Assembly (NCBI GenBank): GCA_001460835.1
Contig: CYKH01002064.1
Coordinates: forward strand, 12,979-45,657
DNA: 32,679 bases
Direction of reading: 5' to 3'
Source: Bodo saltans
Taxonomy: Eukaryota > Euglenozoa > Kinetoplastea > Eubodonida > Bodonidae
Within the stretch, counting starts at the first letter, position 1. Each line of letters starts with the position of its first letter. The translations under genes were made by a program, and so were the position numbers. Under the pieces are notes generated by a model. The model did no database searches, was not told where the DNA came from, and worked only from the letters and a program-made list of their open reading frames with translations. Shown here piece after piece: positions 379-27,047 of this stretch.

Positions 379-3102
379 ATGTCGCTCACGTCCCAACCCT
401 CAATGCACTTCACGAAGTCCTTCGTGCGGCGTGCAGATGATAACACAAGTGGTTCCGTGGGAGGTGGAGGTGCACTTGCCCAGCCGGTAGGTGCTCCCGC
501 ACCGATGACGACCGCGCGCATTCTACCAACACACACGAAAGCGAACTACGAGCAGTTTCACCTCGTCATCGCAAAGCATTACGCCAATGAGTGCGAAAAT
601 GTATGTGCCGAGTTTTTGGACACATGCCGCCGTGTTTTTGCCGGAATGCAACAAGCAAACAAATACGTGACGAACCATCAACTTCAAGAAACACTGTCGA
701 TTAGTCCTGGAGGCCTCGTTGGGCTCGTGCTGGGCGGCAATAATCTTCAAAACGATCCCAATTCGAGCGATAACGCCAACGTCGAGCGTCAAGTTCGCAA
801 CGCCATTCGCATTGCGTCTAGCATCGTGAAGGATGGCTTGCACGAAGACTTGAGCCGCCAGAAACCTCTTCGGCAAATTAGCAGTCAATCCTTTGTGCAC
901 AGCGAAGAGTTGGCGTATGTGCACTTGTGGCACAGTAGGCGTGAGGGGCGTAAGTTCCAGCAACAGCTACGCAGCCTGGCCGCAGTTCGCCACCGCATCC
1001 CCGCACCCAAAATGTTGTGCGTCCCCTTCTCGGTGGCCTTGGCGTATCAGGGCCGGTTCATCACGGTGACGTGGATGCCGCCGCTCATTGATGAGTTGCC
1101 AATGACATGCACTAACGACGGAGTTGTGGGAACAATGGATGATGCATGGCGGTTTTCCTGCGGCGCATCGCTCACCCCCCAGCACACCCAGCAGCTCGGC
1201 AACAGACTGTCGTTCCACGCAGGTGCGGATGGAAGGTACTACACGATCACAAGCTGCGTACCTCCCCTCGGAGATCGCAACACCGATAGCTCAAATGTGT
1301 GCAGATATGAGCATATGATGACTGACCGCGCAGGTGCTGACGATGATCTTCGTGCAGTAGAAATTCATGTTGAGAACGCCTTGACGCGCGCAGCGGTGAA
1401 CCTCGGTGACGTTGTCACGAACGAGGAGAAGCTTCGAGAAGCAGCCCCTGATCTCGTGACGAAGGTGTGCAGGGACGCTGGACTGAACAAACAGTTTCTG
1501 TTTCGTCTTCGTAACGTCATGGTGCAGACGCTTCAAAACAGCGGGCAGGACCAAGCGGCTGGTGCTACAGTGGACATGTTGGACACCGAGATGATTGGAC
1601 GAACGCTCAAGTCTGTCGTGGAAGCTCATTTGCTGTTGTCCATTGATGAATCCGACGGCCCTTTTACGTTATCGTCTCGCCTGGTCGTGGTGAACGAGCT
1701 CATGACCATTTTCTTCCGCAACCCAGAGTTTCTGCAAGGAACGCTGATGCCGTTGATGCGGTTGAAGTTCCGTGCCACCGACGCATTTGTCATTCACCCG
1801 TCGCATTTAAAGCTTGGAATGGTGGCGCGAATGCTCGCAGAGCGATTTGCCATGACGTTCGATCCCAAGACAAGGAAGTTTGCCACGTTTCTCGAAGATC
1901 CAGTTGTTCTGGGACACACGGGACGATCCCCCATTAATAGTGCCGAATTCTTTTCCGGCAACAAGACTCTCGCATCCCGCCGTACGCAAGATCTTCTACA
2001 GCAAAGCTTTGTGGTGAAAGTGCCGCACCTTCTCCTCCCTTCGACGCCAAACTTCTCCTTTGCTCCCAAAATGGCCCCAGCGCTCTATGCCCTCTCTTTG
2101 GCTCTCATGACAACAACAGAGGCCTACGCCACCGTTGCCTCAGGTAGCGACAAAGATTTTATCACGACATCCTCCAGCGGTCGGCAGGAGCTTCCTCGTA
2201 ATGTGCTCCGTCAGTTCTACTCAGGCCTCGCTGCATACTTTGGTCAACGATCTCAATACCTTGCTGCGGATTTAGCGAGTGATTCTATCGTCGTCGAGAA
2301 CATGATTCAGCGCGAGGGGAATGCACTGGGGCATTCGATGCAAGCCGCCTCCAACCGCTTGAACATGATCGACGTCGAACATATTTTATCACGCGTCTCT
2401 GAGTGCTTGCGTACCAGCCCAGAGGCAGTCGGTATGCAGAACGACGCGTGGACACATGTGATGCTCAGTATTGTGGAGCGTGTGTGTGGGCCGAATATTC
2501 AACCGATTTCTCGTGACCATGAGAAGGAGCTGGAGGTGAAGACAACGTTGCGACGAGTGCTCTTGACGTTCTTCTCGGAGTGTCCGGTAAGCGGTCGCGA
2601 AATTATGAAGCGGCTACCCGACGCGGTTCTCAAACTTGCGCTCTCCTTTCCAAAAGAGCGGCTGCTTCCATCGTTGCTCCTTATTGCTCAAGCGTCGCAG
2701 TTTGTCCTCCTTGACGATTCCACCGCGAACACAGAGCCCCTGGATCAAAATGATTGTAGCGTGTTATGCAAGGTGTGGGATGAGTTGATTGCTCAGTCCA
2801 TCCCCATGTGGCTGATGGTATGCGATGCGTGCCCCACCGATGCTCTGTTCGAGGAGACTCTAGGAAGGCTGCTTGCCGATGATGAGGCGCTAACCCTCTT
2901 GCAGTTCGTGGTCATGGTGTCCAAGGTAGGCCATGTACAGATGCTGCTGGCAGAAGAGCATGGATTGCGCGTTGACCGAAGGAAGGCGTTGCTAGAGCAG
3001 TTCACGTCGTCGTTTAGGCACCAGATGGGCCACTTCCAACTCGAGAAAAAGATGGAGAAGGTCACCGAAGAAGTGGACAGTCTCATTCAACCGTTTGAAT
3101 AA
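379..3102 (+). CDS. Gene 1: divergent CLU (clustered mitochondria)-like protein, 907 aa
   Basis: No close named relative is recognised. Several motifs match the order seen in CLU/CluA/TIF31-family proteins. At residues 218-236 a hydrophobic stretch around VALAYQGRFITVTWMPPL resembles the family's 'dyrG.r..a..lPi' segment. At 280-296 HAGADGRYYTI followed by PP resembles 'H.GtDGRYY.lDfaR.fPPE'. At 367-383 DAGLNKQFLFRLRNV resembles 'GIN.r.lG.lr'. At 403-416 TEMIGRTLKSVV resembles 'EM.aRt.Kn'. A helical segment at 459-500 fits the part that follows in the family. The C-terminal 400 residues are helical and end in a charged coiled-coil-like tail. Family members are cytosolic; those studied affect mitochondrial distribution and bind mRNAs for mitochondrial proteins. 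Whether this divergent protein shares that role is unknown. ATG 379 is the first ATG after the acceptor. Two further divergent copies of the module lie at 14822 and 20625. Confidence 0.72.
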   Translation: MSLTSQPSMHFTKSFVRRADDNTSGSVGGGGALAQPVGAPAPMTTARILPTHTKANYEQFHLVIAKHYANECENVCAEFLDTCRRVFAGMQQANKYVTNHQLQETLSISPGGLVGLVLGGNNLQNDPNSSDNANVERQVRNAIRIASSIVKDGLHEDLSRQKPLRQISSQSFVHSEELAYVHLWHSRREGRKFQQQLRSLAAVRHRIPAPKMLCVPFSVALAYQGRFITVTWMPPLIDELPMTCTNDGVVGTMDDAWRFSCGASLTPQHTQQLGNRLSFHAGADGRYYTITSCVPPLGDRNTDSSNVCRYEHMMTDRAGADDDLRAVEIHVENALTRAAVNLGDVVTNEEKLREAAPDLVTKVCRDAGLNKQFLFRLRNVMVQTLQNSGQDQAAGATVDMLDTEMIGRTLKSVVEAHLLLSIDESDGPFTLSSRLVVVNELMTIFFRNPEFLQGTLMPLMRLKFRATDAFVIHPSHLKLGMVARMLAERFAMTFDPKTRKFATFLEDPVVLGHTGRSPINSAEFFSGNKTLASRRTQDLLQQSFVVKVPHLLLPSTPNFSFAPKMAPALYALSLALMTTTEAYATVASGSDKDFITTSSSGRQELPRNVLRQFYSGLAAYFGQRSQYLAADLASDSIVVENMIQREGNALGHSMQAASNRLNMIDVEHILSRVSECLRTSPEAVGMQNDAWTHVMLSIVERVCGPNIQPISRDHEKELEVKTTLRRVLLTFFSECPVSGREIMKRLPDAVLKLALSFPKERLLPSLLLIAQASQFVLLDDSTANTEPLDQNDCSVLCKVWDELIAQSIPMWLMVCDACPTDALFEETLGRLLADDEALTLLQFVVMVSKVGHVQMLLAEEHGLRVDRRKALLEQFTSSFRHQMGHFQLEKKMEKVTEEVDSLIQPFE

Positions 3103-3203
3103 ACGGGCGGATGCGCACATGAAAAGAACTTTAGTCAGTAGTTGTGAAACTGCAAGCGCTGGTAAGAAAGCCCCCTGCTGCTCTGGTAGACTTGGAGCAA
3201 AGG

Positions 3204-3223
3204 GCCTCATGACATCATGAGGC
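3204..3223. repeat. Perfect inverted repeat, 9-base arms, 2-base centre
   Basis: GCCTCATGA (3204-3212) and TCATGAGGC (3215-3223) are exact reverse complements separated by CA. It lies about 100 bases past the stop codon of gene 1, so in RNA it could form a tight hairpin in that transcript's 3' untranslated region. A two-base loop is too small for an ideal hairpin, so a DNA-level palindrome or a loop opened by one or two pairs is as likely. No function is known. Confidence 0.5.
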
Positions 3224-3351
3224 GCATCTCGAACGAACACATATCACTAGCTCCTCCCCGAACACAATTTTTGTACGGCAAAAGTCGAACTGTGTTGCAT
3301 GTAGCCCTTCTTGTTAGTGGTGCCTGTGTTCTTTGACAAATTGTCGTTACA

Positions 3352-4249: not shown

Positions 4250-7200
4250 ATGGAACTCGCCGATCTAGAAACGCTCGAGCCTGCTGAGCGGCAAGTTCTT
4301 GAAACAGAAGAGGCGCAGCATTTTGCCGCCTTCAATGCACTTGACGCTCAGCAAAAGACGATGTTTATGTTGTCGATGTTATCTCGGCAACTTCTCGTGT
4401 CACAAGACCGCCAGCGCCGAAGGATAGAAGTAGAAGCTCTCCTCGCAGTGAGACAATTGGCGCTGATGACCAATGAAGTCGTGGGTCGTGTCACGTACGT
4501 TGCAAATGACGAAGCAAGAAGTCGTAGTCGTTTGTTGTTACAGGCAAGTCTCCACCTCGAGCAGTCGACAGAGCGGTCAGAGGAACGTCTCTTGGAGTCA
4601 TCGGAGCGATATGCTGTGCAGGAACGAGAGGCACTAGAACGCCGTGCTCTTCTTGTGCACTGGTGTTTGACGGTGAAACAAGCGTTGACCATTACAATCT
4701 TAAACGAAGAGCGTATCTCCCGTGTGATCACTATTGAAGGTCCGCATTATTGGCGCAAGCAGCTGATTAGTTGCGGAGACGAAGAATACGCCTCGCGGCG
4801 AGCTCTTGACAGTGCTGCGCTGGTGGGGCGGATCGCCTTGATGGCAGACGCATCGGTGTTCCTTTTGGCCTTGCGCACGAAGCACGCGACGGCCGTTAGT
4901 GAGATCACGGGCGCCGAGGCAGATTTTAGGCGTTTGATGACAGACGAAGAGCAGCTGCAGCGCTTAGGTCTCTGCACTGATGCAGTTCACTCAGAACACG
5001 TCGCTGCGCTGGTGGCAATGTTGACGGAGGAAATCGCATTACGAAAGGAGGTCCAACGAGAATTCTCCCTCAACACGCAGCGTTCACGATTAGCACAGGA
5101 GGAGAGCGATGCTCGGCGCTCCTTCCAAGGCCGCGAGGCGATCATCCGAAGTGCGGCGTCGAATGACATCTTCGACAAAGTGTACTTTTGGACCGAGTCC
5201 CACCGACAGGTTGCCTCCGAGGCGCGGCATCGTGGATCGTTGGTCAGGTTTGTGGAACCTTTGGCTCGTGTTGGGCTCGGTGCGGTGATCACGATGCTCA
5301 ATGAGATGCAACGATTTACGTCCGGCTACGACGCAATGTGCCAACGATTTCAGATGGAATGCTGCCTCTTGACATTGCAGCATGACGAGGAGCCGCAAGC
5401 CCGCATGAAGCTCTTCCACGAAGAAGAAAGAAGCAGAGCTCGCGACTTGACCAACGCTGCGGGCTGGAAGTACATTCGCACCGTGGAGCTAGCTCAATGG
5501 GAATACGAATGCCGCGAGGAGGTCGTAGAGGAGTGGGAGTCGGAGAGTAACGAATTGGAAACGTGGCTCCTTCAACGATTGATTCGACTGACCAACGATG
5601 CGATGATGTCTGCGTCTGAACGGGGAGGGAACGGCAGGATGGAGACGCTGGCAGCTGCGAACAACAGCCTTCGCAGTGGCCATGGTGGAGGAGGGGTTGA
5701 TGCAGGAGGAGAGTTGTTGTTTGCGTCGTCTTTCACGGCGGAATCCGACAAATTGTTTGTCAAGAATCTCATCGAGCAAGAAGAATTTCCTCGACAAAAA
5801 CTCCACCGTATTGAGCACACAGAGTTTATCGACATGGTTTCGCAATGCATCCAGCGAGGCGAGACTGTGCAGCGGCAGCAGATGCTTCGTGCCTATGACT
5901 TGGACTTTGTAGGGATCAAGTGGAAGAGTAGATCAAAGCAAAAGGTGTTGCTTCGCACTGGTGCACTGTACGATGCCGAGTTCCGCCAACGAACGGATCT
6001 TGAGGAGCTGGCAGGTAGACTTCATATTACGATGACAGAAGCATTCACGGCGTGGAGACTTTTGAAACTGGATGCGCCCCGAAGTTACCTCCATGGACGT
6101 GCGCTGGAGTCGAAGCATGCCCTTCAGCACATTGCAGCAATGGAGCGTATCGTCATGGTGGAGCACCACTACGGCGCGGCTCTGGAAGAGTGCGAGAGAG
6201 TTGCCTTTCGTCGTCTCGTCACGAAGCACCAGGTTCATGGCATGGTGACTCTTGGGTCAGCAGGAAGGCGGCAGATCACCGACCTTGAGCATCAACACTT
6301 CTTAGTCGACATCCGCGAGCCGCACGAGCGTTGGCTACTGGAGAAGCGAATCGCATCCAACTTTGTGGGGAATGTGGAATCGTTTGTGCGAGCAAATGAA
6401 GTGATGGCAGCAGAATCGAAATCAATAGTTCAGTTGTTGGAGGAACCGTTGTACCGCCGACACCTCACTGTCTATGAGGAACTGAGTGCCAGAAATGCAT
6501 TGTTGCCGACCTTGGAGGAGCTTGCTCGCCGATGGATTGCCGAGCAGTCAACCTGCGCGGTGGTGCTCCTTTCCAAGGAACATGATCAATCCGCGCTGTG
6601 GTCTCACCAGCAACACCTCAGACGTGCGATGGTGCACGGCGAGCAACTGATCATGCTCCGTCTGAAGGAATCGTTCTCTCGTAAAACTCTTGTGCTCCGA
6701 GAGATCCATACATTCCATCAAGAGTTTGCGCACCTCCCTAAGCGAATGAAGGTGTTGCTTGAAGAACATTGGGCAAGACAGGAGCTGGATCAAGTCTTTC
6801 GGTTTGTGATCGATGAGCCGCAACGGAGAAGTCATGTGGCTGCAGAGCAGGAACGTGCGTTTTTTCTCTTGAAGACTGGCGAAGGGATCAACCGAACGGT
6901 ACTTGGAGCGTTTTTTGAGAAGGAACGGAACGCCCGGAAAAAGGTAGCCCTTCACGAAGAAGACGACTGGGAAGCTGTCGGATTGTCGCAAAGATTCCGC
7001 CGTTCGTCGATTCGCCGCAGTGTACCACTTCCCTTTAAGCCCCCTGCAACACATGATCCGATCCACAACCATAACATGAATCCCCTCCTTGGCAGTCCAC
7101 CAACAAAGTTTCCATCACCCCAGTCGTGGAATGTCGCGGTGGAGCACAACGATGCTGCTGCTGCTGCTGCTGCTGCTCCTATGGAACAACAAACAAGCAA

Positions 7201-7747
7201 CAAGCTCTACACCATCATGAGCATCACGGACAACAACAATCTGTCATCGCCAACTGACGCTTTGATTATGATCGCCAACAACGGCGTGCAGCAAGGCCCT
7301 ATTGTTGCTACCGAGAATTCCACACTTGCATCACATGCTTCTTGGTGCAACAGCTCGACGCCAATCGACGCAAGCAAACTGGAAGATGCTGAAGTGCTGA
7401 TTCGTCTTCAGATCCTTCGTCATGAAGATCAAGCCACACGACAGTTGTTTCAGCTCTTGAAGAAGCCCGTCAATGCACAACAGGCACATCGGACACCAAC
7501 AAAGCCGATGTTTGCCTTTACATCGCCCAATCGGCCTCACACAGCCGTTTCCGTCACTGCTCGAGCCAACATCGTGGCGTCCAATAATAATACCGGTAGT
7601 GCCATCAAAGATGGGGTTTCTCCTTCAAGTGTCACACGGGAGATGCAGCAGTTTACGACTCCAAAAAGGCCAGATAAGAGTAATCAAGATCTGATGACAC
7701 AAGGTTCCCCAAGAAGCCACTATTTCCGGGGATCGTTCACCCAGTAG
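4250..7747 (+). CDS. Gene 3: large charged helical-repeat protein of unknown function, 1165 aa
   Basis: No named family is recognised. Residues 1-910 are almost continuously alpha-helical in character, rich in Glu, Arg, Leu and Ala. They carry a degenerate recurring motif of the form (hydrophobic)x(2-3)-E-E-xxx-R-xx-(L/F). Examples are LAQEESDARRSF (281-292), FHEEERSRARDL (389-400), LIEQEEFPRQKL (507-518), LLEEPLYRRHL (729-739), FVIDEPQRRSHV (852-863) and a late copy HEDQATRQLF near 1058. Residues 910-1165 are low complexity (Pro, Asn, Ser, Thr) with an eight-alanine run at 969-976 and two or three proline/threonine-rich patches. No signal peptide or membrane span is visible. The architecture suits a structural or scaffold protein, possibly cytoskeletal, but nothing in the sequence proves this. 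ATG 4250 is the first ATG after the acceptor. Confidence 0.8.
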   Translation: MELADLETLEPAERQVLETEEAQHFAAFNALDAQQKTMFMLSMLSRQLLVSQDRQRRRIEVEALLAVRQLALMTNEVVGRVTYVANDEARSRSRLLLQASLHLEQSTERSEERLLESSERYAVQEREALERRALLVHWCLTVKQALTITILNEERISRVITIEGPHYWRKQLISCGDEEYASRRALDSAALVGRIALMADASVFLLALRTKHATAVSEITGAEADFRRLMTDEEQLQRLGLCTDAVHSEHVAALVAMLTEEIALRKEVQREFSLNTQRSRLAQEESDARRSFQGREAIIRSAASNDIFDKVYFWTESHRQVASEARHRGSLVRFVEPLARVGLGAVITMLNEMQRFTSGYDAMCQRFQMECCLLTLQHDEEPQARMKLFHEEERSRARDLTNAAGWKYIRTVELAQWEYECREEVVEEWESESNELETWLLQRLIRLTNDAMMSASERGGNGRMETLAAANNSLRSGHGGGGVDAGGELLFASSFTAESDKLFVKNLIEQEEFPRQKLHRIEHTEFIDMVSQCIQRGETVQRQQMLRAYDLDFVGIKWKSRSKQKVLLRTGALYDAEFRQRTDLEELAGRLHITMTEAFTAWRLLKLDAPRSYLHGRALESKHALQHIAAMERIVMVEHHYGAALEECERVAFRRLVTKHQVHGMVTLGSAGRRQITDLEHQHFLVDIREPHERWLLEKRIASNFVGNVESFVRANEVMAAESKSIVQLLEEPLYRRHLTVYEELSARNALLPTLEELARRWIAEQSTCAVVLLSKEHDQSALWSHQQHLRRAMVHGEQLIMLRLKESFSRKTLVLREIHTFHQEFAHLPKRMKVLLEEHWARQELDQVFRFVIDEPQRRSHVAAEQERAFFLLKTGEGINRTVLGAFFEKERNARKKVALHEEDDWEAVGLSQRFRRSSIRRSVPLPFKPPATHDPIHNHNMNPLLGSPPTKFPSPQSWNVAVEHNDAAAAAAAAPMEQQTSNKLYTIMSITDNNNLSSPTDALIMIANNGVQQGPIVATENSTLASHASWCNSSTPIDASKLEDAEVLIRLQILRHEDQATRQLFQLLKKPVNAQQAHRTPTKPMFAFTSPNRPHTAVSVTARANIVASNNNTGSAIKDGVSPSSVTREMQQFTTPKRPDKSNQDLMTQGSPRSHYFRGSFTQ
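7154..7177 (+). repeat. GCT trinucleotide microsatellite coding for eight alanines
   Basis: Eight uninterrupted GCT codons follow a GAT codon inside gene 3. The pure single-codon run indicates recent slippage growth and probable length variation between strains. Confidence 0.9.
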
Positions 7748-14821: not shown

Positions 14822-17800
14822 ATGTCACTGGAAGCAAGTACTTTCCCTAAGATTGTTCTCCAAGCGTGCAGAGACGCAACACGATGCATTGTAGACGGAT
14901 TGATTGTGTCCGACCCATCTTCCAACGAGATTAGCAGCACCACGACCGCGAACACAACTATTACGAGAAAAGGTGCGACGAAACCCCCTCCTTCAACGCC
15001 ATCTACGGAAACGGGGTTCCCTGCTAGAAAGCCCGCTTCAGTCTCCACCACGTTCTTGTCCAGCTCCATTACAGCAGGTGAGGAGCAGTTTGCCGTGGTG
15101 GCGGATCGTTTTCTGCAGAAGCATGCGATGTGGATCCTAGGAGACTGGCGAGCTGGTGTTCCTAAGGGGACGCATTCTATTATTCTTTCACACACTAGGA
15201 AGGAATTGTTTTGCTTCTGGGCGCCGTGCGATAGCGCCGGGGTGGACTCGGTGGTCTCGTCGAGCAACAATGAGTTCCGTACTCCGTCGTTTCTCTTGTT
15301 GCGCATTTGGTTCTCACGCAGGGACGCCCTTGAGGCCCATCGAGCACTCGCATACGCTGCGGCTCGTGTGCAGCAGCAACAACTTCGATCCTTGATCGCC
15401 ATTCCTAGATCGGCTGTGTTTGCGTGCCATGGATCCATTGTGAGCGTGACGGAGGTGATGCCACTGATGCTAGATGGAGGCCCGAAAAGCGATGTTGTTA
15501 GTGTAGCTGAACGAGAGTGGCATGACTGCTTGACGGAGCAGATTTTAGGATATGATCATGTGCGACGAAGCGGTCCGATTAACAAAGAGAACGAAGGCGA
15601 TACAGATGCCCAGGAGAGACAGCTGACGGGTGGGGTGTTGTGCCCATTGTCGGCGTCAGAGATGGGCGGTCGACTGCTTGGATCGTTGAACATTAGCATT
15701 CGAGACGTATTGAACTTCGAAAAAGCGCAGGCAGCCGCTACCAGCAATACTCCTCAGACACCTCAGGGCACCGCTGCTAGTCATGTTCCTCAAATACAAC
15801 AACAGCATGATGGAGTGTTCTGCCGCTGGTTATTCGTTCCCTCGTCCCCCGACGTATTTGTGGGGCTAAGCCCTGAACTCCAGCGCAGCGCACTGCATTC
15901 ACGTTTCCTTCGAAGACATCACCTGATGGACTCGTTTGGCACCGTTCAGTGCAGAATCGAGGAACTCGTTGATGGCCTTGTGAGCAGGACAGACGAGGAG
16001 GCCATGATTTCGTTCCCACTTGGACCTGAGCACTACAGGGCACGGAAGTCTTCTCTGTCTGCGATTTTTCATCGTGCCGGCGTCAATTTTAGATTTGTCC
16101 CCGAAGTTCGTGCCGCTTTGGTTCAGCGGTTTGTGCAAGGAGGAGGGGTAGTATCTCGCGGCTTGCAAGCTGCTCTTCACCTTGCACTAGATGAGAGGTT
16201 GGCGTCCCGCAGCGTTACCTGTTTGCTGCAGAACCGTTTGTTTGATGTCGCCGAGCGAACAGCCCGACTTCCAACAACAGAGAAAGTGTTGCGCGAACGC
16301 CGTGGCGTGTCGAACTTACTTGCGAAACTGTGGCGAGATGCTTCCTCTTCCTTTCTTTTGAATGGCATCAAGGACCACTACGGCGCTGATGCATGTGACC
16401 GTTGCCTTTTAGTGAAGTTTCCGCTGCACAAAGCTCTCACAACTCCAGGGTCCACTGGACTGGCTGCGGTTCTTGGCGCTGCGACGCTTTCGCTGGGCAT
16501 CCCGTGCACTGTGGACGTTTACACGGGAGACAAGACAATCGACGCTGTTGCTGTTTCATTTGAAACGGAAGGGACTCTCCCATCTTTCTTTTCTTCCTGC
16601 GTCGTTCGGCTGACATCGTTACGAGAAGGAGACATGTTTGACACGTTGATGATCTCCCCTCTACAAGCCGCCAATGAGCAGCAGCAACAAAGCGTTCTTG
16701 CAAATATCCTTCAACGCCTTCTCCTTCCGTCAAGTGAGACGGACGCACAACGTGCGCTCAATGTCCTCTTGCCGATGGAAAGGTCGAGCAAGCAGACAGA
16801 TCAGCTAGGGGTTGCTGTGTACGTGTTCATGTTGGCGCACCGACAACTCCGTCAGCAAGTGTATGCGACTCCACCTTCGTGGGAGGAAGTTGTTCTCTCC
16901 GGCTCATCCTTAGAGTCCACCGAGGTGCAGAAGTCCCTCAGCACAATTGTTGCCTCTGCTCTACGCACATTGACTCGGTATGTTCTTGCAGAACAGTCAC
17001 CATCATCTCCGTTTCAGACACAGAGGTGCGTTGCGTATCAGAGCATTAGGATGATCGTGAAGTGGTTGCACCGGAAGACGACCCTCTTGATGCAAGGAGG
17101 CGATGCCCCACCCACGAACCACGTCAACGCTGGTAAGAAAGACAATCAGTGCCACGTGGAGTTATTGTCTGCCATCACAGCCGCGTGTGGTGTGTGTGCT
17201 GCGTGGAGGCTTGGGCATGAGTATGTCCTCCAACATCAACAATCGCTTGAACAACGCGGTGACAATAACATGCGTCAGCTGCGCCTTGCAAGTGCACTGT
17301 TTCTGACATACGAGCACGCTGAGGTAGATCAAGAAATTCAGCAGAAGCCCTCGGCGATTGTTGGGCCCTCCACTTGGTCTCTGTTCGTGTTGCGTAGTGT
17401 ATTGCTAGGGAAGAGTCATGGTCCTGTCCTTCAGCAAGATGACGTCTTTCTCGGTGCGCTGTGCCTCGTGGCAGCTCACATCGCCCATGCGGCTCACGTG
17501 GAGCAGCGAGAGGATCTTTCAGCCCTTGGCCTCCTTGTTGCCCTTCCAGCAGCCACCCTGCCTCTTGCTACTATCGAAACCATCGAGAGTTTGTTGCAAC
17601 TGCGTAGCGTTGGTGGGATAGGAGTGCCCTACACCTTATCCTTCTTAATGCTGCAGCTGATGGTGGAGTTGGAGCAACTAGACAATGTCATTGTCCCCAC
17701 AGTGCTGGGCACTGCATTGGCTCGTTGGATGTTTGCAGGGGTTGAGCCACTTTCCTCCGCAATTGTCGAGATGATGAACGATGCAACATCTCAACTCTTT

Positions 17801-20203
17801 CCACCGCCTAGTAGTATGAACCTTATTAGTTCTCTCTCTCCTCGAAATCGAGCGAGAAAGGCATTGGAGAGCTACTGTCAAGGAAAGGCATTTCAATCCC
17901 AACGAGTTGCAATGAGTAGGGCTGTCCTGGAGAGCGCACTCGCAAGCCCCACGCGTCATCTAACGTTGGCAATCGCTGGCGATGCACCAACTTCAAGTGA
18001 ACATCTCGATGCCCAACTGCAAGGAGCCCGTGCACTCCTTGTGACCGTGCTTGTGCGAGGAGGTGATCCCACTGGTCTCTCTTCCGCTACTGCCACCCCA
18101 CGCACTGATGTGAGCTTGAAACCTCAGCGACCTCTAGGCCCCAATGGAAGCCCTCACCGCCCCATCAACAAAAAATCAGGCCAACCAACCCAACAGGCAG
18201 CCCAACAGCACAAACCACAATCACTTGTGGAACGTGTCTGCAGCCGATGGCGTCACTTTGACACGCCTACTGCGATGGCACGATATGCAGACGAGTCATT
18301 GTGGGGCCGCACTGTGGGGATTCTGAGCTCATCCTCTACTGTATCTGAGGTGGATGCAGAGTATTTCCTGCTAGACTTTGCCCTTTTCGGTGAAGTGTAC
18401 GAAGCAGAGGTGGCTGCCTCACTGCCTCACGCCGCTGAAAGTGGCGACGTGGCAATGCCACAACTGCAATACGGCGCTGTTGGAAGGCCACTTGAAGAAG
18501 CATTTCGTGAGCCTTTTCAACGAAGGGCAGTTCTGGTCGCGCTGCTCCTTGCGTCTGCTCGTTGTGTGACTCTTTTTGGAGCACAAAAGCCACCACACAC
18601 GACGCGCACAAAGGACGCCATGGGCTCCGTGGTGGCGTCTGTCATTTTGATCCTCAAGCTGCAAGATGAGCTGGTAGCGGAGCTCGATGACGAAGACCCT
18701 GTTCTGCAGAGCTTGTTGGATATTGCTGAGTGGCTCTCAGGCACCGGGAATGCAGAAGACAAGGTCCTAAGTAGGTGCGTTGCCTTGTTCGTCACCCGTG
18801 AGCTTCTCCCTTGGGAGTTGCTGTCTCAATCCGCCTCGGTCGAAGCGGTGGAGGCCGTCATGGATCTGTTTTACCGCTTCGACACCTGGCAGGTAGACCC
18901 GTGCTTCGCAGAGCTGCCCACGTTTATGACGGTAGATGGCGCAGCCGAAGCCATCATGCTTGTGCTCGATTCTTTTGAGGACGGCGAGGATGAATACCCG
19001 GCCGTGCGGCGCACTGCAAGAATCCTCAACCGAACTCTTGCCGGCTATCAGGAGATCGCAACATCATTAGCGATAAAGAAGCAGCGAACCATCGGCATCC
19101 CTCGGCCGCCCTCAACATCTGTGACAGGGAGAAAGAGAGTGATCAGTGCTAACGCCACCCGATCGCTGCTATCTTCTCACCCAAGCAACGCTTTTATTGC
19201 GGCAGAGGAATCCGACCGCACTCTTCTGTGCGCCGAGGAAGAACGAGAATTTTTCGAGAGCATTCTCAACGTACACAGGCGACAATTCCCACCTCTCCAC
19301 GAGCGTCATCTTGTCTATGTCACACAATCCACCGTTGAGTTACGCCCAGAAGACTTACTCCAGCACTTGATTCAAGACGTTGAGCCCCGTAAGAGGCAGG
19401 CGCTGTACAAGACGTGGATCAGCGAACTGCGAGCCCTGGAGATCGACATGGAGTTTATCTTAACGTCGCCGCAAGACGAACACTCCCACGGTGACGCTGG
19501 CCGTCATACAGCGTTGGCGACGCTACCTCGAAATGCTTCATCTGAGTCACCAGCACTCGGGGCGTTGCTACAGAAAAACCATGCAGACGACGAGGGCGAT
19601 GCCGCCCTTCAGGACATCTTACTCAAGAGTAGTGAGACGACAGCAGCACCACCAACTGTAACCTCAACTCCGTATGCATCGGGTCTCAGAACAAGTGGGT
19701 CACGCAGTGCAGGACAGACGGCGTTGGAGCTTCCTTCACACAGCAGAGCAACCAGTTACCAAGATGATGAGACTCCGTATAAAATACGAGCTGCAACTTC
19801 TGCCGCTGAATCTGCGTCGCTGACAAATGCCCGTCGCCAAGACGCAGAGCTGCGCGAAGATCATTGGGCACGGCGTCGAGAGCTGGAGAAGGAAGAGAAC
19901 CGAGAATTCTTAGCGTTGCTATCGGGTGCACAGTTGGAAGCGATGCAACTGGTCGACGTGCCGGACGAAGAGAGAGCGTTCTTTAGTCGCAAAACACCGT
20001 CACGACCACCCACTCCCGTCCTTGATGAGGTAGCACAATCAGCCATCGCACTTGACCAAGCCACTCTGCGTCCTCCAAAGTGTTTCCGTATTGTGGACGA
20101 CGAGGAGCGACTACGCACGATGATCGAAGACATGTGTCACACGTATTGGGGAGTGTTGTTGTTAGAAATGAAGCGCAGCTTCCTACTGAAAAGAAAATAT
20201 TGA
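14822..20203 (+). CDS. Gene 5: divergent CLU-like module plus helical-repeat C-terminus, 1793 aa
   Basis: The N-terminal half aligns in order with genes 1 and 6. An N-terminal helix (9-30) contains CIVDGLIV, matched by CIVDLLLV in gene 6. FLLLRIWFSRRDALEAHRAL (157-176) and the following strand region to VMPL match the first CLU-like block. LSAIFHRAGVNFRFVPEVR (412-430) matches the 'GIN.r.lG' block. FLLNGIKDHYG (511-521) resembles the family's 'I..KfG' segment. The EM-xRT-K helix is poorly preserved. Residues 580-1090 are Leu-rich helical sequence of unknown fold, followed by a Pro/Gln-rich linker (about 1090-1135). The last 330 residues carry the charged repeat shared with genes 2-4: LLCAEEEREFFESIL near 1466, REDHWARRREL near 1677, VPDEERAFF near 1713, VDDEERLRTM near 1756. 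It is thus a fusion-like bridge between two module sets. No catalytic motif is seen; function unknown. ATG 14822 is the first after the acceptor. Confidence 0.78.
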   Translation: MSLEASTFPKIVLQACRDATRCIVDGLIVSDPSSNEISSTTTANTTITRKGATKPPPSTPSTETGFPARKPASVSTTFLSSSITAGEEQFAVVADRFLQKHAMWILGDWRAGVPKGTHSIILSHTRKELFCFWAPCDSAGVDSVVSSSNNEFRTPSFLLLRIWFSRRDALEAHRALAYAAARVQQQQLRSLIAIPRSAVFACHGSIVSVTEVMPLMLDGGPKSDVVSVAEREWHDCLTEQILGYDHVRRSGPINKENEGDTDAQERQLTGGVLCPLSASEMGGRLLGSLNISIRDVLNFEKAQAAATSNTPQTPQGTAASHVPQIQQQHDGVFCRWLFVPSSPDVFVGLSPELQRSALHSRFLRRHHLMDSFGTVQCRIEELVDGLVSRTDEEAMISFPLGPEHYRARKSSLSAIFHRAGVNFRFVPEVRAALVQRFVQGGGVVSRGLQAALHLALDERLASRSVTCLLQNRLFDVAERTARLPTTEKVLRERRGVSNLLAKLWRDASSSFLLNGIKDHYGADACDRCLLVKFPLHKALTTPGSTGLAAVLGAATLSLGIPCTVDVYTGDKTIDAVAVSFETEGTLPSFFSSCVVRLTSLREGDMFDTLMISPLQAANEQQQQSVLANILQRLLLPSSETDAQRALNVLLPMERSSKQTDQLGVAVYVFMLAHRQLRQQVYATPPSWEEVVLSGSSLESTEVQKSLSTIVASALRTLTRYVLAEQSPSSPFQTQRCVAYQSIRMIVKWLHRKTTLLMQGGDAPPTNHVNAGKKDNQCHVELLSAITAACGVCAAWRLGHEYVLQHQQSLEQRGDNNMRQLRLASALFLTYEHAEVDQEIQQKPSAIVGPSTWSLFVLRSVLLGKSHGPVLQQDDVFLGALCLVAAHIAHAAHVEQREDLSALGLLVALPAATLPLATIETIESLLQLRSVGGIGVPYTLSFLMLQLMVELEQLDNVIVPTVLGTALARWMFAGVEPLSSAIVEMMNDATSQLFPPPSSMNLISSLSPRNRARKALESYCQGKAFQSQRVAMSRAVLESALASPTRHLTLAIAGDAPTSSEHLDAQLQGARALLVTVLVRGGDPTGLSSATATPRTDVSLKPQRPLGPNGSPHRPINKKSGQPTQQAAQQHKPQSLVERVCSRWRHFDTPTAMARYADESLWGRTVGILSSSSTVSEVDAEYFLLDFALFGEVYEAEVAASLPHAAESGDVAMPQLQYGAVGRPLEEAFREPFQRRAVLVALLLASARCVTLFGAQKPPHTTRTKDAMGSVVASVILILKLQDELVAELDDEDPVLQSLLDIAEWLSGTGNAEDKVLSRCVALFVTRELLPWELLSQSASVEAVEAVMDLFYRFDTWQVDPCFAELPTFMTVDGAAEAIMLVLDSFEDGEDEYPAVRRTARILNRTLAGYQEIATSLAIKKQRTIGIPRPPSTSVTGRKRVISANATRSLLSSHPSNAFIAAEESDRTLLCAEEEREFFESILNVHRRQFPPLHERHLVYVTQSTVELRPEDLLQHLIQDVEPRKRQALYKTWISELRALEIDMEFILTSPQDEHSHGDAGRHTALATLPRNASSESPALGALLQKNHADDEGDAALQDILLKSSETTAAPPTVTSTPYASGLRTSGSRSAGQTALELPSHSRATSYQDDETPYKIRAATSAAESASLTNARRQDAELREDHWARRRELEKEENREFLALLSGAQLEAMQLVDVPDEERAFFSRKTPSRPPTPVLDEVAQSAIALDQATLRPPKCFRIVDDEERLRTMIEDMCHTYWGVLLLEMKRSFLLKRKY

Positions 20204-20624: not shown

Positions 20625-23600
20625 ATGAAGCCGAGCAACCAACGGCGAAAGAGCTCTGTTGGGTTGCCACCAGCCGATGCCCCTATGAGCCTTAAGAGTC
20701 ATAGCACAACAACCAAAGACCCACTAGCATCGAGCACATCATCTGGACGTTTTAAGCAACAACAGTTCCCGCCTACTGACAGCCCGTTCCTGCCCATTCA
20801 ACAGGAACACGACACCAAGAAGAACGGTAGCAGTAGTTCAAGTGAATGCCGCTTGCTGATGAAGTGCATCGTAGACTTGCTGCTTGTGAAGCGTCCTGAA
20901 CCGTTTAGGACGCAACAAGTGGCAGACCGCACGTCTCAGCGGAAGGAGACAGCTGGTGATGCTCAGCCACCATTGAGCACCTCCTCGACTTCCACCGCAG
21001 AAGTCACCAACATCGTTCACAATGAGATTCAGCACGATGCTCGCTTGACGCAACGTGAAGTTCTTAGTTTGTTCACCCGCCAAAGCAACACCAAAGGAGG
21101 GAAGAGGGATGATGCTCCCTCAGTAGTTCTTGCTAGCGATCCTTGGCCTGAGACAGAATGGAAATGTTCCCTCACTGCAATGGAAATTGTGTCGGAGCTA
21201 TTCGGCGGTAACGGTGGCGGTCATCAAGCACGACAGACGATGGAGGAGAATCTTTCCGAAGGTGCTGATAAGACCCACCAACCCCCTCCTCATCGCCGTG
21301 AGTTTGCGAATCTTGCGGCGGAACACCACAACAACGGCGGTCCTTCTGATGACACCTTATCGCAAGGAGCAACATTCTACTCCTTTGATGACGCTGCGGT
21401 GGTTCACATTTGGAAGTCACGACGATCAGCGCATCGGTTCATCTCTTCGCTGCGAGACATCGCTCAAGTCTGCCACGAGCTTCTTCTCCCCTCGTGCTGG
21501 TCAACACTACACACCGCTACGTTGGCGTATGGTGGCGCGGTGTTGACGGTGACATGGCTCCCCCCAGTAGCCCCCTCCTCGTCAGTTTATGAGGAAGTGC
21601 CCAACACGACGGACTCGCACGTAGACGAAGTGAGCCACGTCTTGCACCAACTTCTTCCTGCATTTCAGAACAGCGCGCTTTGCATCGCGGAACGAGGGGC
21701 TTCCGTTGGCTCCATATACTTTTTGCCAACGTTTTGTGCTTCTCTGAGTGACGACTCAGAGCAGCCGCAACGCACAGTTCCGTCCCCTGGAAGTAGCAGC
21801 ACAGTTTGCTGCGAACTACGATGCATTTCCGCGTGCTTCCCGTCGCGCTTGGAGTTGAAAGACACCGTTGGACCGACCACACGGCGACTCTCCCACGAAG
21901 GAGGCCTTCATCGTGTACGATTAGCAGATGAAGCGGTCCTCATTCAAGCCGTTGTATTGCGCCTGTTGTCTTCCCCATCCCTCGCCCCGCCATCATCGCT
22001 ATCAACTCACGACTTGACTCTTGTCATGGAGAAGGGAGCCGATGCGGCACCGTTTCCGAGTCTGGCCCTTCGTTCTGCATTCTGGCAATCGATGAACGCT
22101 GGAGGCGGCGTTAAGAAAAACAGTTTCACTTCGTCTTCGGTGACAGGCTTTACGGTGTCATCGATATTTCACGATTGCGGAGTGCCACTTGGGTGGATAC
22201 GTCGCGTTCGTGACACAATCCTATCGATGTCGGCGACATCGGGAAAGATAGCCCATGATGAAATTACCGCCGCCGCCTCCAAGAGTAAACTTCTGCAGCG
22301 ATGGTACGTGGCAGAGGTGCTCGGCGCGGAAATGGTTGCCCGCACACTGAAGAACATTGTATCTTCTGCGTGCTCGGCACAATTCGCAGAAGCACCATTG
22401 GAAGAAAAGACCAATAATGGGGCGAGCGAACAGGCTGTGCCAATGCTGGTAGGTAGACGAGCATCTGTTGCAGCCGCGAAGCAGAATCAACCCTCATCCC
22501 CACTGCAGCGAAGGCAGTCAACAGTTAGTAGCGTCAATGCAGCCGCACAAACTGCTGCTCCTGTGACAGCCAATCGATCGTTAGACGATGCTTTGGCTCA
22601 ACGGAGAGCGCACTATGAAAAGAAAGCCAACTCTGTCTTAGACATTGCAAACCAAATGTTGCCGATATTGTTCCATGATGAGGCTTCGCAATCGTTTTCA
22701 GCTTCCGTCAAGCGCAGTGCCGGGCAGTCGTCCTCATCCGCCTCGTCTGCAGTGGCGGCTGTGTTTGTGAAGGACTGCTTGATTCCGTCCATGATGCAGA
22801 AATATTACCATCACAACCGCAGCAGCAATTCTTCGTCGTCGGCATCAACAACAACTCAAGCGAACGAAACACGCAGGCGTGAACGAGAAGATTGCGAGCG
22901 GCTCGTGCAGTGGTGGTTACCGTTGTCAACGCAAGGACACAGAGATGACATCGGTGGATACTCTGCTTCTTCGGTTGACGACCTGATGAGCCGGTCGATC
23001 AACGCGCCACCGATCAACAAAGATAGTGCTGCGGTACCAAGTAGCAGCAGCATCGGCCCTCGTCTGTTTCTCTTGCGGCATCTGTCGAGCCGCCTTGGGT
23101 TCCACTTCAACGTCGCCGTGAATCGATTTGATCGCTTATCCAGCAGAGAAATGCTGCGATCATCTGGGCGATCTGCTGCGACGTCCATGACGACGGCGAT
23201 GGACGGTGGAGCATCCTTATCCATGCTTGAGGCGGCAAAATCTTGGATGATTAGTCGTCTTCAGGAGTTGTCCCAAGACGACTATGCGGATCGTGGGAGC
23301 CGCACTTCTGTCATGTTGTTTTTCAGAATTGTTGCACATTGGCTCCTGCGAACCTCTTCAGTTCACAGAGCGCATTCGACCAAAACCAACGAAGTGCAGT
23401 TGAGGTCGTTTCTATCAGAAATACGATCTGCTGTCATAAAGCACATGCCACCAGGAACGCTGAGTGATGATGCCACTGAGAAGGAAATGCTACGTGCACT
23501 GTTGGCAGCAACGGTTCCGTCTACTACTCTTTATCAACGGCATGACACTATTCGTGAGCAGCGACGTGAAATTTCAGAAGAAGAGCTCGCTCGAGGGTAC

Positions 23601-26600
23601 CTGATCAATAAGTGGAAGGGCACGATGGACAAGTGGCACGACGCGTTCAGCAACACTCACAAGAAAATTGCACTGGAAGATGCCAAGCGGCAGAAGGAAA
23701 GAGATCTCCTTGATGTTGCTCAGCTGTCTGCCCGCACGCAAGCCGCAGTTCCCTCAGAGCACTCAGGCATTGCCGCCCCTCGTCCCCCGCCAAGCATCTT
23801 TGCGCAGCTGTTGTCCAAAGCGGCCAACTCTGTGATTGTGGCGAATCGCATCGCGTCAGAGGCAGCGCAGGCCCGTCCCCGTTTGCTGCTGACAAAGCAG
23901 CGCAGCGCCGCTGGCGGTACAGCAACAGAAGGATCAAGGAAGCCTGGTGCTGTTCGATCTGTCCTTCACGCAGTAGACGACTCCTCGGACGATGATGAAG
24001 AGGACGGCATCATGATCACGCATCGACCAACATTGGCAGGAGATGTTCGTAAAATTCGAATCGGCGGACATCATCACGAGCAGCAGCACCTTGGCCATTC
24101 TGCAAATGGCGTCGGAAGCGATGATGGAAGTTCATCCCCCACAGCAAGCCCCACAGCAAGTCGATCTCCTGGCCACCGAGGCAATCGATCAGAAGGTGGC
24201 GAGGACGATGCTTCCGCTGATGACCTTGTTGCCGGCAGCCCAACCGCATCGATGGAATCCGCAGGCTTTGCCGAGTCCATTTTACGGAACATTGTGTTCG
24301 ACACAGAGGAAGAGACGATTGCAGGCCGTCAAGAGCTTCTTGACGCTCGGAGTTTAAATGATCAAAATGAGCAAGCAAGATTGAACTTCCAAGCCGCAAA
24401 CAACAACACAACACCGGACGAGTTAGTGGAGAGTGCACCGTCGAGCACACCACCACTGATGGTTGAGTTTGAGCAGATTGTAGACAATGAGGTCGCGGTA
24501 GTGAAGAGTGACGGCCCCGCCCCACTAGGAGGAGGTGATGATTATCTCCTCAACCCCTTAGAACTACCAGAGCAAGCATCATCATCGGTAGAGTTAAAGT
24601 CGCTCCATATTCCTCGTGGTGAGGGAGTGACGCAACCACCTACTCCCAATGATGGCATGATGGTAGAGCCGCTACCGAGGCAACAAACGCCACGACATGA
24701 CACGTACGGAATTGACCAGGCTGGTCGAGACGATCCTGTGCAAGAAGCCGTACCAGAAACCAATGAGAGAGTCATCGTCACAGACGCGGTGGGACCCCAG
24801 CCAGCAGCAGAGGCGCCTCATCCGTCGGAGGTGCAGGAGGTGACTGTTGTTGGAGGCGTTGACGAGTCTCTCAATCCGCCACCCAGCTTAGATTCGAGTG
24901 ACCGGCTGCAGATCTCGGCACTCGCACAGGATGTCCATGCAGTGTCACTACTTGAACCGCACGACGACGCTTGTGATCTAGTTGGTGAAGCGGATGCAAC
25001 GGATGCAGCTGGCGGTGAGGAGAAGTTACTGAAGACCGACAATGAGCTCGTGGCTAATGAGTTCGCTGAACCATCAGTCGAACCACCCATCTCAGCGGAG
25101 GAAGAACTCCCTTCGCATGTGAATGATGATCTTCCTAAGCATCTTGAACCAACTGCTGCTGCCGATTCTCCGACACACCCAACGGATGCAAACTTAGAAA
25201 TTGCTCTAGAAGAGGAGGAAGCAAGCGGCGCTCCTCCTAGCGCAAGCATTACAGCGTGCGGTGCGCCTTTCACACAAGATCCAGCAGGCGAGCATCAATC
25301 ACTGTCACTAGAAGACAACATCACCAAGTCCGCTAGTCTTAGCTTGCCACCACATAACGCGGATGCTCCCACTGATGATGATGCCACTCTGGCCGCCCCA
25401 CCTACAGACGAAGCAATTGCGGCCCCCACAATAGCAAATGAAAGTGCGCTCAATGCTTCGACGCCGCCATCCGCTGGAGAAGTTGCGGCCCCACCACCAC
25501 CACCACAGCACGCATCCGAGGAGCAGCTGCAGCCACAGTCCGTGGAAGAGAGAATCCAACACGAGGTTGCTGCGAAGGAGGCCGATGAGCAAGCAGCGAA
25601 TCACGACGATGACATGGAACTTGATGCACTGTTCGCCATGTTTGCACCCAGAGGGCAGAGTCCTGCTGTTGCTGACGAGATGGCCGGGGAGCGAACAGCT
25701 TCAGGAGGAAGCCAGCATAACAATCCACGAAGCACAAAGTCTAAGCCCAACAAACATGCTATCGCGGTTCCCATCTCTGCGCAGATGATAAAAGAAGCAA
25801 TCAAGAAGTTTAAGAAGATCGAATCCGACAGCAGAGGGCGCCTCATCGCTCTCGAGCACAGCCTCCACGGCACTTTGCTGGAGTCGTACGCCTGGTCCTG
25901 GTTGCAATCCCGCTGCCAAGAATTCAAAATGTATGAGGAGATGACGTTATGCACTATTGAACTGCGCTTTGAAGCTCCTCACCAAGACAACAGCATCAAT
26001 AGTTGTTCAGAAACGAACTTCGTGCAGCAGGCGCTTAGCTACTTTGCCGAGGGCTCCATAGCAGTAGAAGAAGTTTCTGTACGCAACAGCGCAGAGGGCG
26101 AGATGCTCGAGGAGCATGTTGCATTTGGATCTGTTCTTTGTCTGTTTGTAGACGCATGGATGGACCTTTGTGCCGAAGAGCTTCACGCGTGGGAGGACAT
26201 CATGGCTGCGAACGAATCGGATCAACGAACTGCGCACGGATTGGCGCGGTGGAGGAAGAAGCGACTTGACGCATACTACTCTGCGCGTGAGGCCGATTTA
26301 GCGGCGAGACATGAGCAGGAACTCCGGGAGGCGAATGTAGAGATGGCCGTCGCCAAAGCTCGTCGTCGTGCGCGCGAAGCGAAAGGCAAGCCCACTACGA
26401 CTGACCCGCTGCCTCCTCAGTCATTGGGGCCTGAGGAAGATGCTTTGGAAAGAAAGCAGCGTAAAGTGCTCTTAGCGCACATGGAGCGTCGTAAACTGCA
26501 GGAGACACGACGAGAGCAGGCTCTGCAACAGACTTCTGTGGAGCGATCGAATGCAATGAGACAGTCACCGCATGATGCATCCTCATCGGTTGAAGTGGAA

Positions 26601-27047
26601 TCGATCACAAGCTCCCTGCACCATCGGCGAACCCACGCACTCCACGCACATCAAGCTCGTAGAAGGGCACAGGAAGAACGGCGCGGTCGTCAAGCTCTTC
26701 AACCCCCAATGGATATGCGGGCAGTCGATGCTGAGCATCATCAGCAAGTGATGGAGTTGCTAGTTGCATCGGTCAAGATGAATGACGATCTCGCTGCAGA
26801 GCCACATGGGCTCGGTGGTACGACAACGCCGCCCCCCAGGCGACAACACGAAGGAGACGTGGCATCACCACCAGGCAAGTTGGAACCCATGTTTAGTCCC
26901 GAGGAGATTCAACGGCGACTCGATGAAGCTGAGTTGGAGTACGAGAGGAAGGGTGCAACAATTTTAAGCCGGCGAGAGCAAGAGAGACGCATTGCACTCA
27001 GAGCCGAAAAACTTCGATCGTTCCACCCAGCGAAGCCCTCGTACTAA
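20625..27047 (+). CDS. Gene 6: divergent CLU-like module, long acidic linker and basic helical tail, 2140 aa
   Basis: The third member of the local CLU-like set. Residues 255-315 (VVHIWKSRRSAHRFISSLRD, then LAYGGAVLTVTWLPPV) align well with gene 1 residues 178-236. Residues 512-532 (SIFHDCGVPLGWIRRVRD) match the 'GIN.r.lG.lr' block, and 569-579 (EMVARTLKNIV) is the best-preserved family-like helix of the three. Residues 717-728 (KDCLIPSMMQKY) and 813-836 (RLFLLRHLSSRLGFHF) fit the following helical segments. The HxGxDGRYY motif of gene 1 is not conserved. Residues about 1100-1710 are acidic, Pro/Ala/Glu-rich and probably disordered, with an SDDDEED cluster near 1121 and SPTAS repeats near 1171-1209. 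From about 1715 to the end the protein is helical, first globular-looking (AMIKEAIKKF style helices, Trp-rich) and then strongly Arg/Glu-rich and coiled-coil-like. Function unknown. ATG 20625 is the first ATG after the acceptor. Confidence 0.78.
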   Translation: MKPSNQRRKSSVGLPPADAPMSLKSHSTTTKDPLASSTSSGRFKQQQFPPTDSPFLPIQQEHDTKKNGSSSSSECRLLMKCIVDLLLVKRPEPFRTQQVADRTSQRKETAGDAQPPLSTSSTSTAEVTNIVHNEIQHDARLTQREVLSLFTRQSNTKGGKRDDAPSVVLASDPWPETEWKCSLTAMEIVSELFGGNGGGHQARQTMEENLSEGADKTHQPPPHRREFANLAAEHHNNGGPSDDTLSQGATFYSFDDAAVVHIWKSRRSAHRFISSLRDIAQVCHELLLPSCWSTLHTATLAYGGAVLTVTWLPPVAPSSSVYEEVPNTTDSHVDEVSHVLHQLLPAFQNSALCIAERGASVGSIYFLPTFCASLSDDSEQPQRTVPSPGSSSTVCCELRCISACFPSRLELKDTVGPTTRRLSHEGGLHRVRLADEAVLIQAVVLRLLSSPSLAPPSSLSTHDLTLVMEKGADAAPFPSLALRSAFWQSMNAGGGVKKNSFTSSSVTGFTVSSIFHDCGVPLGWIRRVRDTILSMSATSGKIAHDEITAAASKSKLLQRWYVAEVLGAEMVARTLKNIVSSACSAQFAEAPLEEKTNNGASEQAVPMLVGRRASVAAAKQNQPSSPLQRRQSTVSSVNAAAQTAAPVTANRSLDDALAQRRAHYEKKANSVLDIANQMLPILFHDEASQSFSASVKRSAGQSSSSASSAVAAVFVKDCLIPSMMQKYYHHNRSSNSSSSASTTTQANETRRREREDCERLVQWWLPLSTQGHRDDIGGYSASSVDDLMSRSINAPPINKDSAAVPSSSSIGPRLFLLRHLSSRLGFHFNVAVNRFDRLSSREMLRSSGRSAATSMTTAMDGGASLSMLEAAKSWMISRLQELSQDDYADRGSRTSVMLFFRIVAHWLLRTSSVHRAHSTKTNEVQLRSFLSEIRSAVIKHMPPGTLSDDATEKEMLRALLAATVPSTTLYQRHDTIREQRREISEEELARGYLINKWKGTMDKWHDAFSNTHKKIALEDAKRQKERDLLDVAQLSARTQAAVPSEHSGIAAPRPPPSIFAQLLSKAANSVIVANRIASEAAQARPRLLLTKQRSAAGGTATEGSRKPGAVRSVLHAVDDSSDDDEEDGIMITHRPTLAGDVRKIRIGGHHHEQQHLGHSANGVGSDDGSSSPTASPTASRSPGHRGNRSEGGEDDASADDLVAGSPTASMESAGFAESILRNIVFDTEEETIAGRQELLDARSLNDQNEQARLNFQAANNNTTPDELVESAPSSTPPLMVEFEQIVDNEVAVVKSDGPAPLGGGDDYLLNPLELPEQASSSVELKSLHIPRGEGVTQPPTPNDGMMVEPLPRQQTPRHDTYGIDQAGRDDPVQEAVPETNERVIVTDAVGPQPAAEAPHPSEVQEVTVVGGVDESLNPPPSLDSSDRLQISALAQDVHAVSLLEPHDDACDLVGEADATDAAGGEEKLLKTDNELVANEFAEPSVEPPISAEEELPSHVNDDLPKHLEPTAAADSPTHPTDANLEIALEEEEASGAPPSASITACGAPFTQDPAGEHQSLSLEDNITKSASLSLPPHNADAPTDDDATLAAPPTDEAIAAPTIANESALNASTPPSAGEVAAPPPPPQHASEEQLQPQSVEERIQHEVAAKEADEQAANHDDDMELDALFAMFAPRGQSPAVADEMAGERTASGGSQHNNPRSTKSKPNKHAIAVPISAQMIKEAIKKFKKIESDSRGRLIALEHSLHGTLLESYAWSWLQSRCQEFKMYEEMTLCTIELRFEAPHQDNSINSCSETNFVQQALSYFAEGSIAVEEVSVRNSAEGEMLEEHVAFGSVLCLFVDAWMDLCAEELHAWEDIMAANESDQRTAHGLARWRKKRLDAYYSAREADLAARHEQELREANVEMAVAKARRRAREAKGKPTTTDPLPPQSLGPEEDALERKQRKVLLAHMERRKLQETRREQALQQTSVERSNAMRQSPHDASSSVEVESITSSLHHRRTHALHAHQARRRAQEERRGRQALQPPMDMRAVDAEHHQQVMELLVASVKMNDDLAAEPHGLGGTTTPPPRRQHEGDVASPPGKLEPMFSPEEIQRRLDEAELEYERKGATILSRREQERRIALRAEKLRSFHPAKPSY

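Follow-up and report, generated by a model that had tools for sequence, protein, structure and literature searches.

Three large genes of a Bodo saltans contig as probable members of a diverged, genome-wide family of CLU-type proteins

The DNA analysed here, called the window throughout, is a stretch of 32,679 nucleotides from the kinetoplastid Bodo saltans (contig C832, positions 12979-45657), and the study concerns three large genes within it, W1, W5 and W6, which are intact open frames of 907, 1793 and 2140 codons. An earlier note, made from the letters of this DNA, had described them as a run of CLU-derived genes with blocks in common. The genes and their blocks, in window coordinates, are as follows.

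379..3102, plus strand: W1, 907 residues, shortest of the diverged CLU-family proteins of the window, with every block including GADGRYY
889..1089, plus strand: W1 block 1 (VHLWHSRRE ... AYQGRFITVTWMPPL), aligning with the opening stretch of the CLU domain in Pfam-CLU proteins
1207..1248, plus strand: W1 FHAGADGRYYTI, probable counterpart of the CLU GxDGRYY motif
1453..1527, plus strand: W1 DAGLNKQFLFRLR block, close to the site of weak Pfam eIF3_p135 matches in paralogues
1582..1629, plus strand: W1 EMIGRTLKSVV block, from profile alignments
1684..1881, plus strand: W1, two further common blocks (VVVNELM..FF..FL...LMP...KF; ARMLAERFAMTFDPKTRKF), from profile alignments
14822..20203, plus strand: W5, 1793 residues, the most diverged, with only blocks 1 and 2 recognised and no clear DGRYY or EM.ARTLK
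15293..15472, plus strand: W5 block 1 (LLRIWFSRRD ... HGSIVSVTEVMPL), 21.6 bits for the stretch in a 15-sequence model
16052..16132, plus strand: W5 block 2 (IFHRAGVNFRFVPEVR), 11.7 bits for the stretch in the 15-sequence model
20625..27047, plus strand: W6, 2140 residues, blocks in order, GASVGSIYF at the place of DGRYY, long polar-rich C-terminal part
21372..21572, plus strand: W6 block 1, from BLASTP and profile alignments
22155..22370, plus strand: W6 blocks 2 and 3 (DCGVPLGWIRRVR, EMVARTLKNIV), from BLASTP and profile alignments
22635..23129, plus strand: W6 later blocks (ANQMLPILF ... DCLIPSMMQKY ... LSSRLGFHFNVAVNRF), weak, with inserts between them; the first two aligned, the third (residues 817-913) at 3.6 bits

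The strings quoted in the earlier note occur in order, beginning at residues 181, 230, 279, 366 and 404 of W1, at 159, 209 and 418 of W5, and at 259, 309, 517 and 569 of W6. Two extra ordered blocks downstream, N..F...FL...L.P...KF and RLG..FD....F, are shared by W1 and W6, the last being weak in W6. At the place of the GxDGRYY motif, W1 has GADGRYY, W6 the degenerate GASVGSIYF, and W5 nothing clear; the alignments thus agree with the decay of this motif that had been proposed for two of the copies. The genes had also been called consecutive, but frames of 250, 1165 and 2180 residues sit between W1 and W5/W6, and the 1165- and 2180-residue frames, scoring -1.5 and -12.5 bits in a model of the diverged CLU modules, do not match it. 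When the three proteins were compared directly by BLASTP, W1 and W6 matched with expectation values (E) of 9e-12 in block 1 and 0.013 in blocks 2-3, and W1 and W5 with E 0.005 in block 1 and 1.1 in block 2. Because the W5-W6 matches within the blocks are not significant (E 0.26 and 0.82; a match at E 0.004 falls outside them), the link of W5 is weak on pairs alone.

The genome was searched for relatives in 29.3 Mb on 934 contigs, and the numbers preceded by C denote contigs of this assembly or loci thereof. The search with W1 returned C572 (E 1.9e-44), C567 (1.4e-14) and W6 (3.4e-9), with weaker matches to C90, C257, C302, C673 and C447 (2.6e-4 to 0.0091). Searches with C572, C673, C257c and C90 agree on this set and add C169 (E 0.049), which is a real member, with ordered blocks and 84.2 bits in models built without it. 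The Pfam CLU model is matched above its cut-off by C899, C781a, C781b and C611. Matches to the Pfam eIF3_p135 model (PF12807) number 11 in the genome, six in the loci already named and five new, with C590, C525 and C50 above cut-off, C452 below it and C703 above it only together with its neighbours, and these five were counted as possible members only. In total there are at least 12 diverged loci carrying 13 modules (W1, W5, W6, C572, C567, C673, C90, C257a, C257c, C169, C447 and C302, the last with two) and four Pfam-CLU genes, and another 3 to 5 loci may belong as well. All these counts are lower bounds, since only the best candidates get scored and a true member, C169, lies near the noise. 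One candidate, C904 (E 0.016; a 98-residue frame with a stop), was left out of them as a chance match.

Several of these loci are unusual in layout. On the minus strand of C302, a single open frame of more than 3500 residues holds two CLU-type modules (131.6 and 43.8 bits when each is left out of the model). The C447 module is split over two frames, 4265-5557 and 5554 onward, with a four-base overlap, through a frameshift, an assembly error or a broken gene; these frames score 54.3 and 34.6 bits in a model without C447. At C781, two Pfam-CLU giants lie ~3 kb apart with a 376-residue frame between them.

Membership was evaluated by leave-one-out scoring, in which a model of the diverged modules is built without the tested protein, and the background set consisted of 39 frames of at least 300 residues from the window and the fetched loci, with family frames taken out. 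W1 scored 152.7 bits and W6 91.5 bits, and the best background score over all runs was 5.4. All 11 diverged modules tested in this way were recovered, with scores from 43.8 bits (C302, second module) up to 175.7. W5, which was never in the training set, scored 30.1 bits, compared with a best background of 2.8 in the same run, and in the 15-sequence model it scored 35.5 bits, compared with 8.1 for the best of 1000 shuffles (646 reported). These scores, together with the positions of the strings, bear out the ordered blocks common to the three genes. On this sequence evidence, W1 and W6 are almost certainly members of the family, and W5 very probably is.

To relate the family to CLU, two alignments were used, A1, of 10 diverged modules including W1 and W6, and A2, of the four proteins that Pfam recognises as CLU in this genome. 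Compared by hhalign, A1 and A2 match with probability 98.1 and E 9.4e-14 over 339 columns, and the alignment takes in, in this order, block 1, DGRYY, GVN, EMVARTLK and the KF and RLG blocks; as a control, the 1165-residue frame of the window was compared with A1 and gave E 0.56. W1 alone matches A2 with probability 75 and E 2.5e-5. The diverged model scores the Pfam-CLU proteins C781a, C899, C781b and C611 at 69.4, 32.2, 26.7 and 18.3 bits. In the reverse direction, a model made solely from the four Pfam-CLU proteins, for which the best background score is 3.9 bits, gives 37.1 for C567, 34.2 for W1, 31.4 for C673, 25.4 for C572 and 13.9 for W6, followed by lower scores for C302b (7.6), C257a (6.8), C169 (5.2) and C257c (5.1). 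At the GVN block, Pfam eIF3_p135 matches below cut-off are present in C302 (E 0.0013), C567 (0.015), C673 (0.028) and C257c (0.17), and an eIF3_p135-like region with GIN.RYLG and EM.aR..K is seen by profile in W1 and W6, and the GVN block alone in W5. The Pfam scan of W1, W5 and W6 (E up to 10) found neither CLU (PF13236), CLU_N nor eIF3_p135, and nothing credible from Pfam in any of the three.

Not all results favour this ancestry. Taken singly against A2, W6 reaches only 11% (E 0.0028) and W5 1% (E 0.047) by hhalign, so that these two are tied to CLU mainly via the family. In the Pfam-CLU-only model, W5 (6.4 bits) is close to the background, and C302a (1.5) and C90 (0.3) are not above it; several members, including W5, are therefore connected to CLU by way of the family, not on their own. 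An AlphaFold model of W1 residues 150-907, made with an alignment of W6 and W5 stretches, had a mean confidence (pLDDT) of 34.8 and was unusable, and no credible PDB relative was found for the C899 protein, A1 or A2. The CLU derivation put forward in the earlier note is supported by the match of A1 with A2 and by the Pfam-CLU-only scores of W1 and W6. We regard CLU ancestry as firm for W1 and W6 and as likely for W5. With the same grades, the three proteins belong to an extensive and ancient family that diverges fast, consists mostly of giants and has as its core the module of CLU and eIF3_p135-like regions found in CluA/CLUH.

The standing of W5 and the origin of the window genes allow other explanations. 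W5 might not be homologous at all, its blocks being alike by chance or composition, and several observations count in that direction: as a genome query it matches itself only, just two of its blocks are recognised, and hhalign gives it 41% (E 2.8e-4) with A1 in addition to the 1% with A2. We nevertheless consider this improbable, because models that never contained W5 score it far above the 39 background frames and the 1000 shuffles, both blocks are in order and where expected, and its neighbour W6 is a member. Another possibility is that W1, W5 and W6 are local tandem duplicates of one another, consistent with the contig and strand common to all three and with two further members that are probably adjacent (see the contig overlap below). 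The tree, however, speaks against it. Built from 16 modules with long branches, it has 3 firm branches among 13 inner ones: W1 with C572 (99/99), C567 with C673 and C302a (99/99), and C257a with C257c and C90 (96/98; 91/91 in a smaller tree). The sister of W1 is thus C572, on a different contig, with 34% identity over ~364 residues. A single clade of W1, W5 and W6 is rejected by the approximately unbiased test (p-AU 0.0027), as is a clade of W1 and W6 (p-AU 0.008, and 0.017 after dropping W5, C302b, C611 and C169). For these reasons the local expansion suggested earlier is not supported, and tandem duplication of the three seems very improbable to us, with the reservation that, the branches being long, the tests share the bias of the model. 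The positions of W5 and C169 in the tree are not settled. Old duplication followed by dispersal, with local clusters, is the history that the data support.

Except in C257a and for the second C302 module, the module is mostly found in the N-terminal direction of the protein, and what follows it varies. Among 15 post-module stretches compared by BLASTP, matches were found between C567 and C673 (E 5e-10), between the IQ stretch of C567 and C781b (1e-6) and between C781a and C781b (7e-4), and no other pair matched at E 0.05; phmmer on the tails adds marginal matches of C781a to C257c and to C302 (0.007). Strict IQ motifs, by a pattern picked after inspection of the C567 tail, number four in C567, four in C781b, two in C781a, and one each in C673 and C302, with shuffle means of 0.00-0.01 each. 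C781b combines Pfam CLU with 8 DUF7623 stretches and its four IQ motifs. A pattern for a regular coil motif gave at most one match per protein.

Elsewhere, CLU proteins normally occur in one or few copies. The window proteins resemble CluA, Clu1 (TIF31), Clueless and CLUH in having the CLU region followed by the eIF3_p135-like block, as judged via the genome's own Pfam-CLU proteins, and differ in lying below Pfam detection, in showing no CLU_N or TPR, and in being many. The nearest Pfam-CLU protein by score in the diverged model is C781a (2749 residues, Pfam CLU and eIF3_p135), which differs from the window copies by its two IQ motifs and Pfam-visible domain. In Drosophila, passages of PMC4823986 describe Clu as binding mRNA and ribosomal proteins and as self-associating, with the TPR part required for mRNA binding and the Clu domain for function. 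Among kinetoplastids, passages of PMC4541047 describe FLAM3 of Trypanosoma brucei (Tb927.8.4780) as a giant flagellum attachment zone protein with an N-terminal CLU domain whose importance its authors call unclear, with large repeats akin to the ones in ClpGM6 (also a table row in PMC4827413), and state an orthologue for Bodo saltans. We infer that these repeats are DUF7623, and C781b looks like a FLAM3 orthologue. The window proteins share with FLAM3 the N-terminal CLU region, in diverged form only, the tie being one of architecture, and lack DUF7623, IQ motifs and a Pfam-visible CLU domain. The architecture had been put forward as undescribed; in that respect a kinetoplastid giant with N-terminal CLU is already known in FLAM3, and the proposal is only partly new. 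Neither the larger diverged family nor a CLU expansion in kinetoplastids is described in the titles, abstract openings and passages of the open-access literature among the matches listed, and CLU terms had no match in PMC12047770 and PMC11555346.

As an explanation of these genes, we lean modestly toward one in which they are diverged CLU-family members acting as scaffolds. The CLU module would serve as a scaffold that binds proteins or associates with itself, while location and partners would be set by the tail of each protein; the window proteins would then be structural scaffolds, possibly of the flagellum or cortical cytoskeleton like FLAM3, and not regulators of mitochondrial mRNA. Taken singly, a scaffold role in place of mRNA binding is possible but somewhat less likely than not, and a flagellar or cytoskeletal place for the window proteins is more tentative still. 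The scaffold fits somewhat better than an mRNA regulator because the module persists with changing tails and no visible mRNA-binding part. Several points weigh against it: what points to IQ and FLAM3 is found in other members and not in W1, W5 and W6, a strict IQ motif being present in none of the other 16 of 21 frames, which include these three; DUF7623 was not found in them (Pfam scan, E up to 10); and C567 and C781b match the Pfam IQ model only below its cut-off.

The proteins might instead be diverged CLUH-type RNA-binding regulators, with mRNAs bound by the module together with a tail of cryptic helical repeats, a separate transcript set for each paralogue. Gene regulation in kinetoplastids is post-transcriptional, and CLU homology itself would suit such a role, as would the mRNA and ribosomal-protein binding described for Drosophila Clu in passages of PMC4823986. 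Helices follow the module in the very-low-confidence model of W1. TPRs were found neither in W1, W5 and W6 (Pfam scan only, E up to 10) nor in five paralogues, C572, C567, C673, C257a and C257c (Pfam, E up to 1), but they are perhaps too diverged to be seen, and their absence from the window copies is weak evidence, because the Pfam-CLU protein C899 likewise shows none in the 1367 residues read of its 2109-residue frame; the TPR matches of C611 (best E 7.5e-6) are below the Pfam cut-offs. What tells against such regulators, beyond the TPR searches, is that the tails are mostly unrelated among paralogues and that the sole studied kinetoplastid member found, FLAM3, is flagellar according to passages of PMC4541047, and we judge this role rather unlikely. 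Decay into functionless copies could account for the missing DGRYY of W5 and W6, for the missing EM.ARTLK of W5, and for the splitting of C447 into two frames. It is very unlikely in view of the intact window frames, the shift of the DGRYY motif by degrees among other intact paralogues and the identity retained between W1 and C572.

It is doubtful, though conceivable, that in this free-living kinetoplastid a normally low-copy regulator of mitochondrial mRNA expanded into a family of structural proteins, most of them giants and 16 to 21 or more in number, with parasitic kinetoplastids still using FLAM3 for flagellum attachment. Of the 16 confirmed members, 12 escape the Pfam CLU model; C302 carries two modules, and one branch has calmodulin-type IQ strings. 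CLU proteins have been studied mostly as mitochondrial mRNA regulators, and at least 16 CLU-type loci suggest wide reuse of the module in this lineage. At least in this genome, counting CLU genes from domain matches falls far short of the true number, and the family offers relatives of FLAM3 in which the role of the CLU module could be tested.

Two weak likenesses involve the frames between the window genes. The long C572 tail is matched collinearly by the tail of W1 (E 0.048) and by the frame of 1165 residues at 4250-7747 (E 0.002), and this frame has a further match, not collinear, at E 0.27; block shuffles reached these scores in 7-12 of 300 trials for the W1 tail and in 1-2 of 300 for the frame. 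This is suggestive of W1 and the frame being a split counterpart of C572, which we do not claim. A short charged motif seeded by the frames 4250-7747 and 8082-14624 and by W5 weakly picks out C257c, at 7.4 bits (E 0.005) compared with 2.4 for the best block-shuffled sequence.

Downstream of the CLU-type genes, the window contains the following.

27199-28440: glycosyltransferase family 17
28948-30603: carbon-nitrogen hydrolase
30823-32679: UvrD-type helicase, truncated where the contig ends
32173..32679, plus strand: window end, last 507 bases, inside the UvrD-type helicase gene, overlapping C257 bases 1-507 at 98.8%

This overlap is gapless and runs end to end; most simply, it means that C257 continues C832, the alternative being a duplicated helicase gene. 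C257a would then begin ~1.35 kb and C257c ~11 kb beyond the window, on the strand of the window genes, and C257b, a large frame, scores -4.4 bits in the diverged CLU model and is not CLU. If the contigs are joined as the overlap suggests, five diverged CLU genes (W1, W5, W6, C257a and C257c) would lie within ~48.5 kb, among large non-CLU frames.

Rfam at gathering thresholds gave no match within the window. The spliced-leader tail, TTTCTGTACTTTATTG, occurs at 55 places in the genome, 54 of them in contig orientation and 18 starting at contig bases 1-5, with 0 for a reversed-pattern control; since the sequence that follows differs in 8 of 8 loci read, these sites look like spliced-leader relics or RNA reads in the assembly and not like spliced-leader RNA genes. 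This tail, the long frames of the window on one strand and the FLAM3-like gene all fit a kinetoplastid, probably a free-living bodonid. In the window, a tandem pair of ~274 bases with 97% matches lies at 28598-29149, upstream of and into the carbon-nitrogen hydrolase frame.

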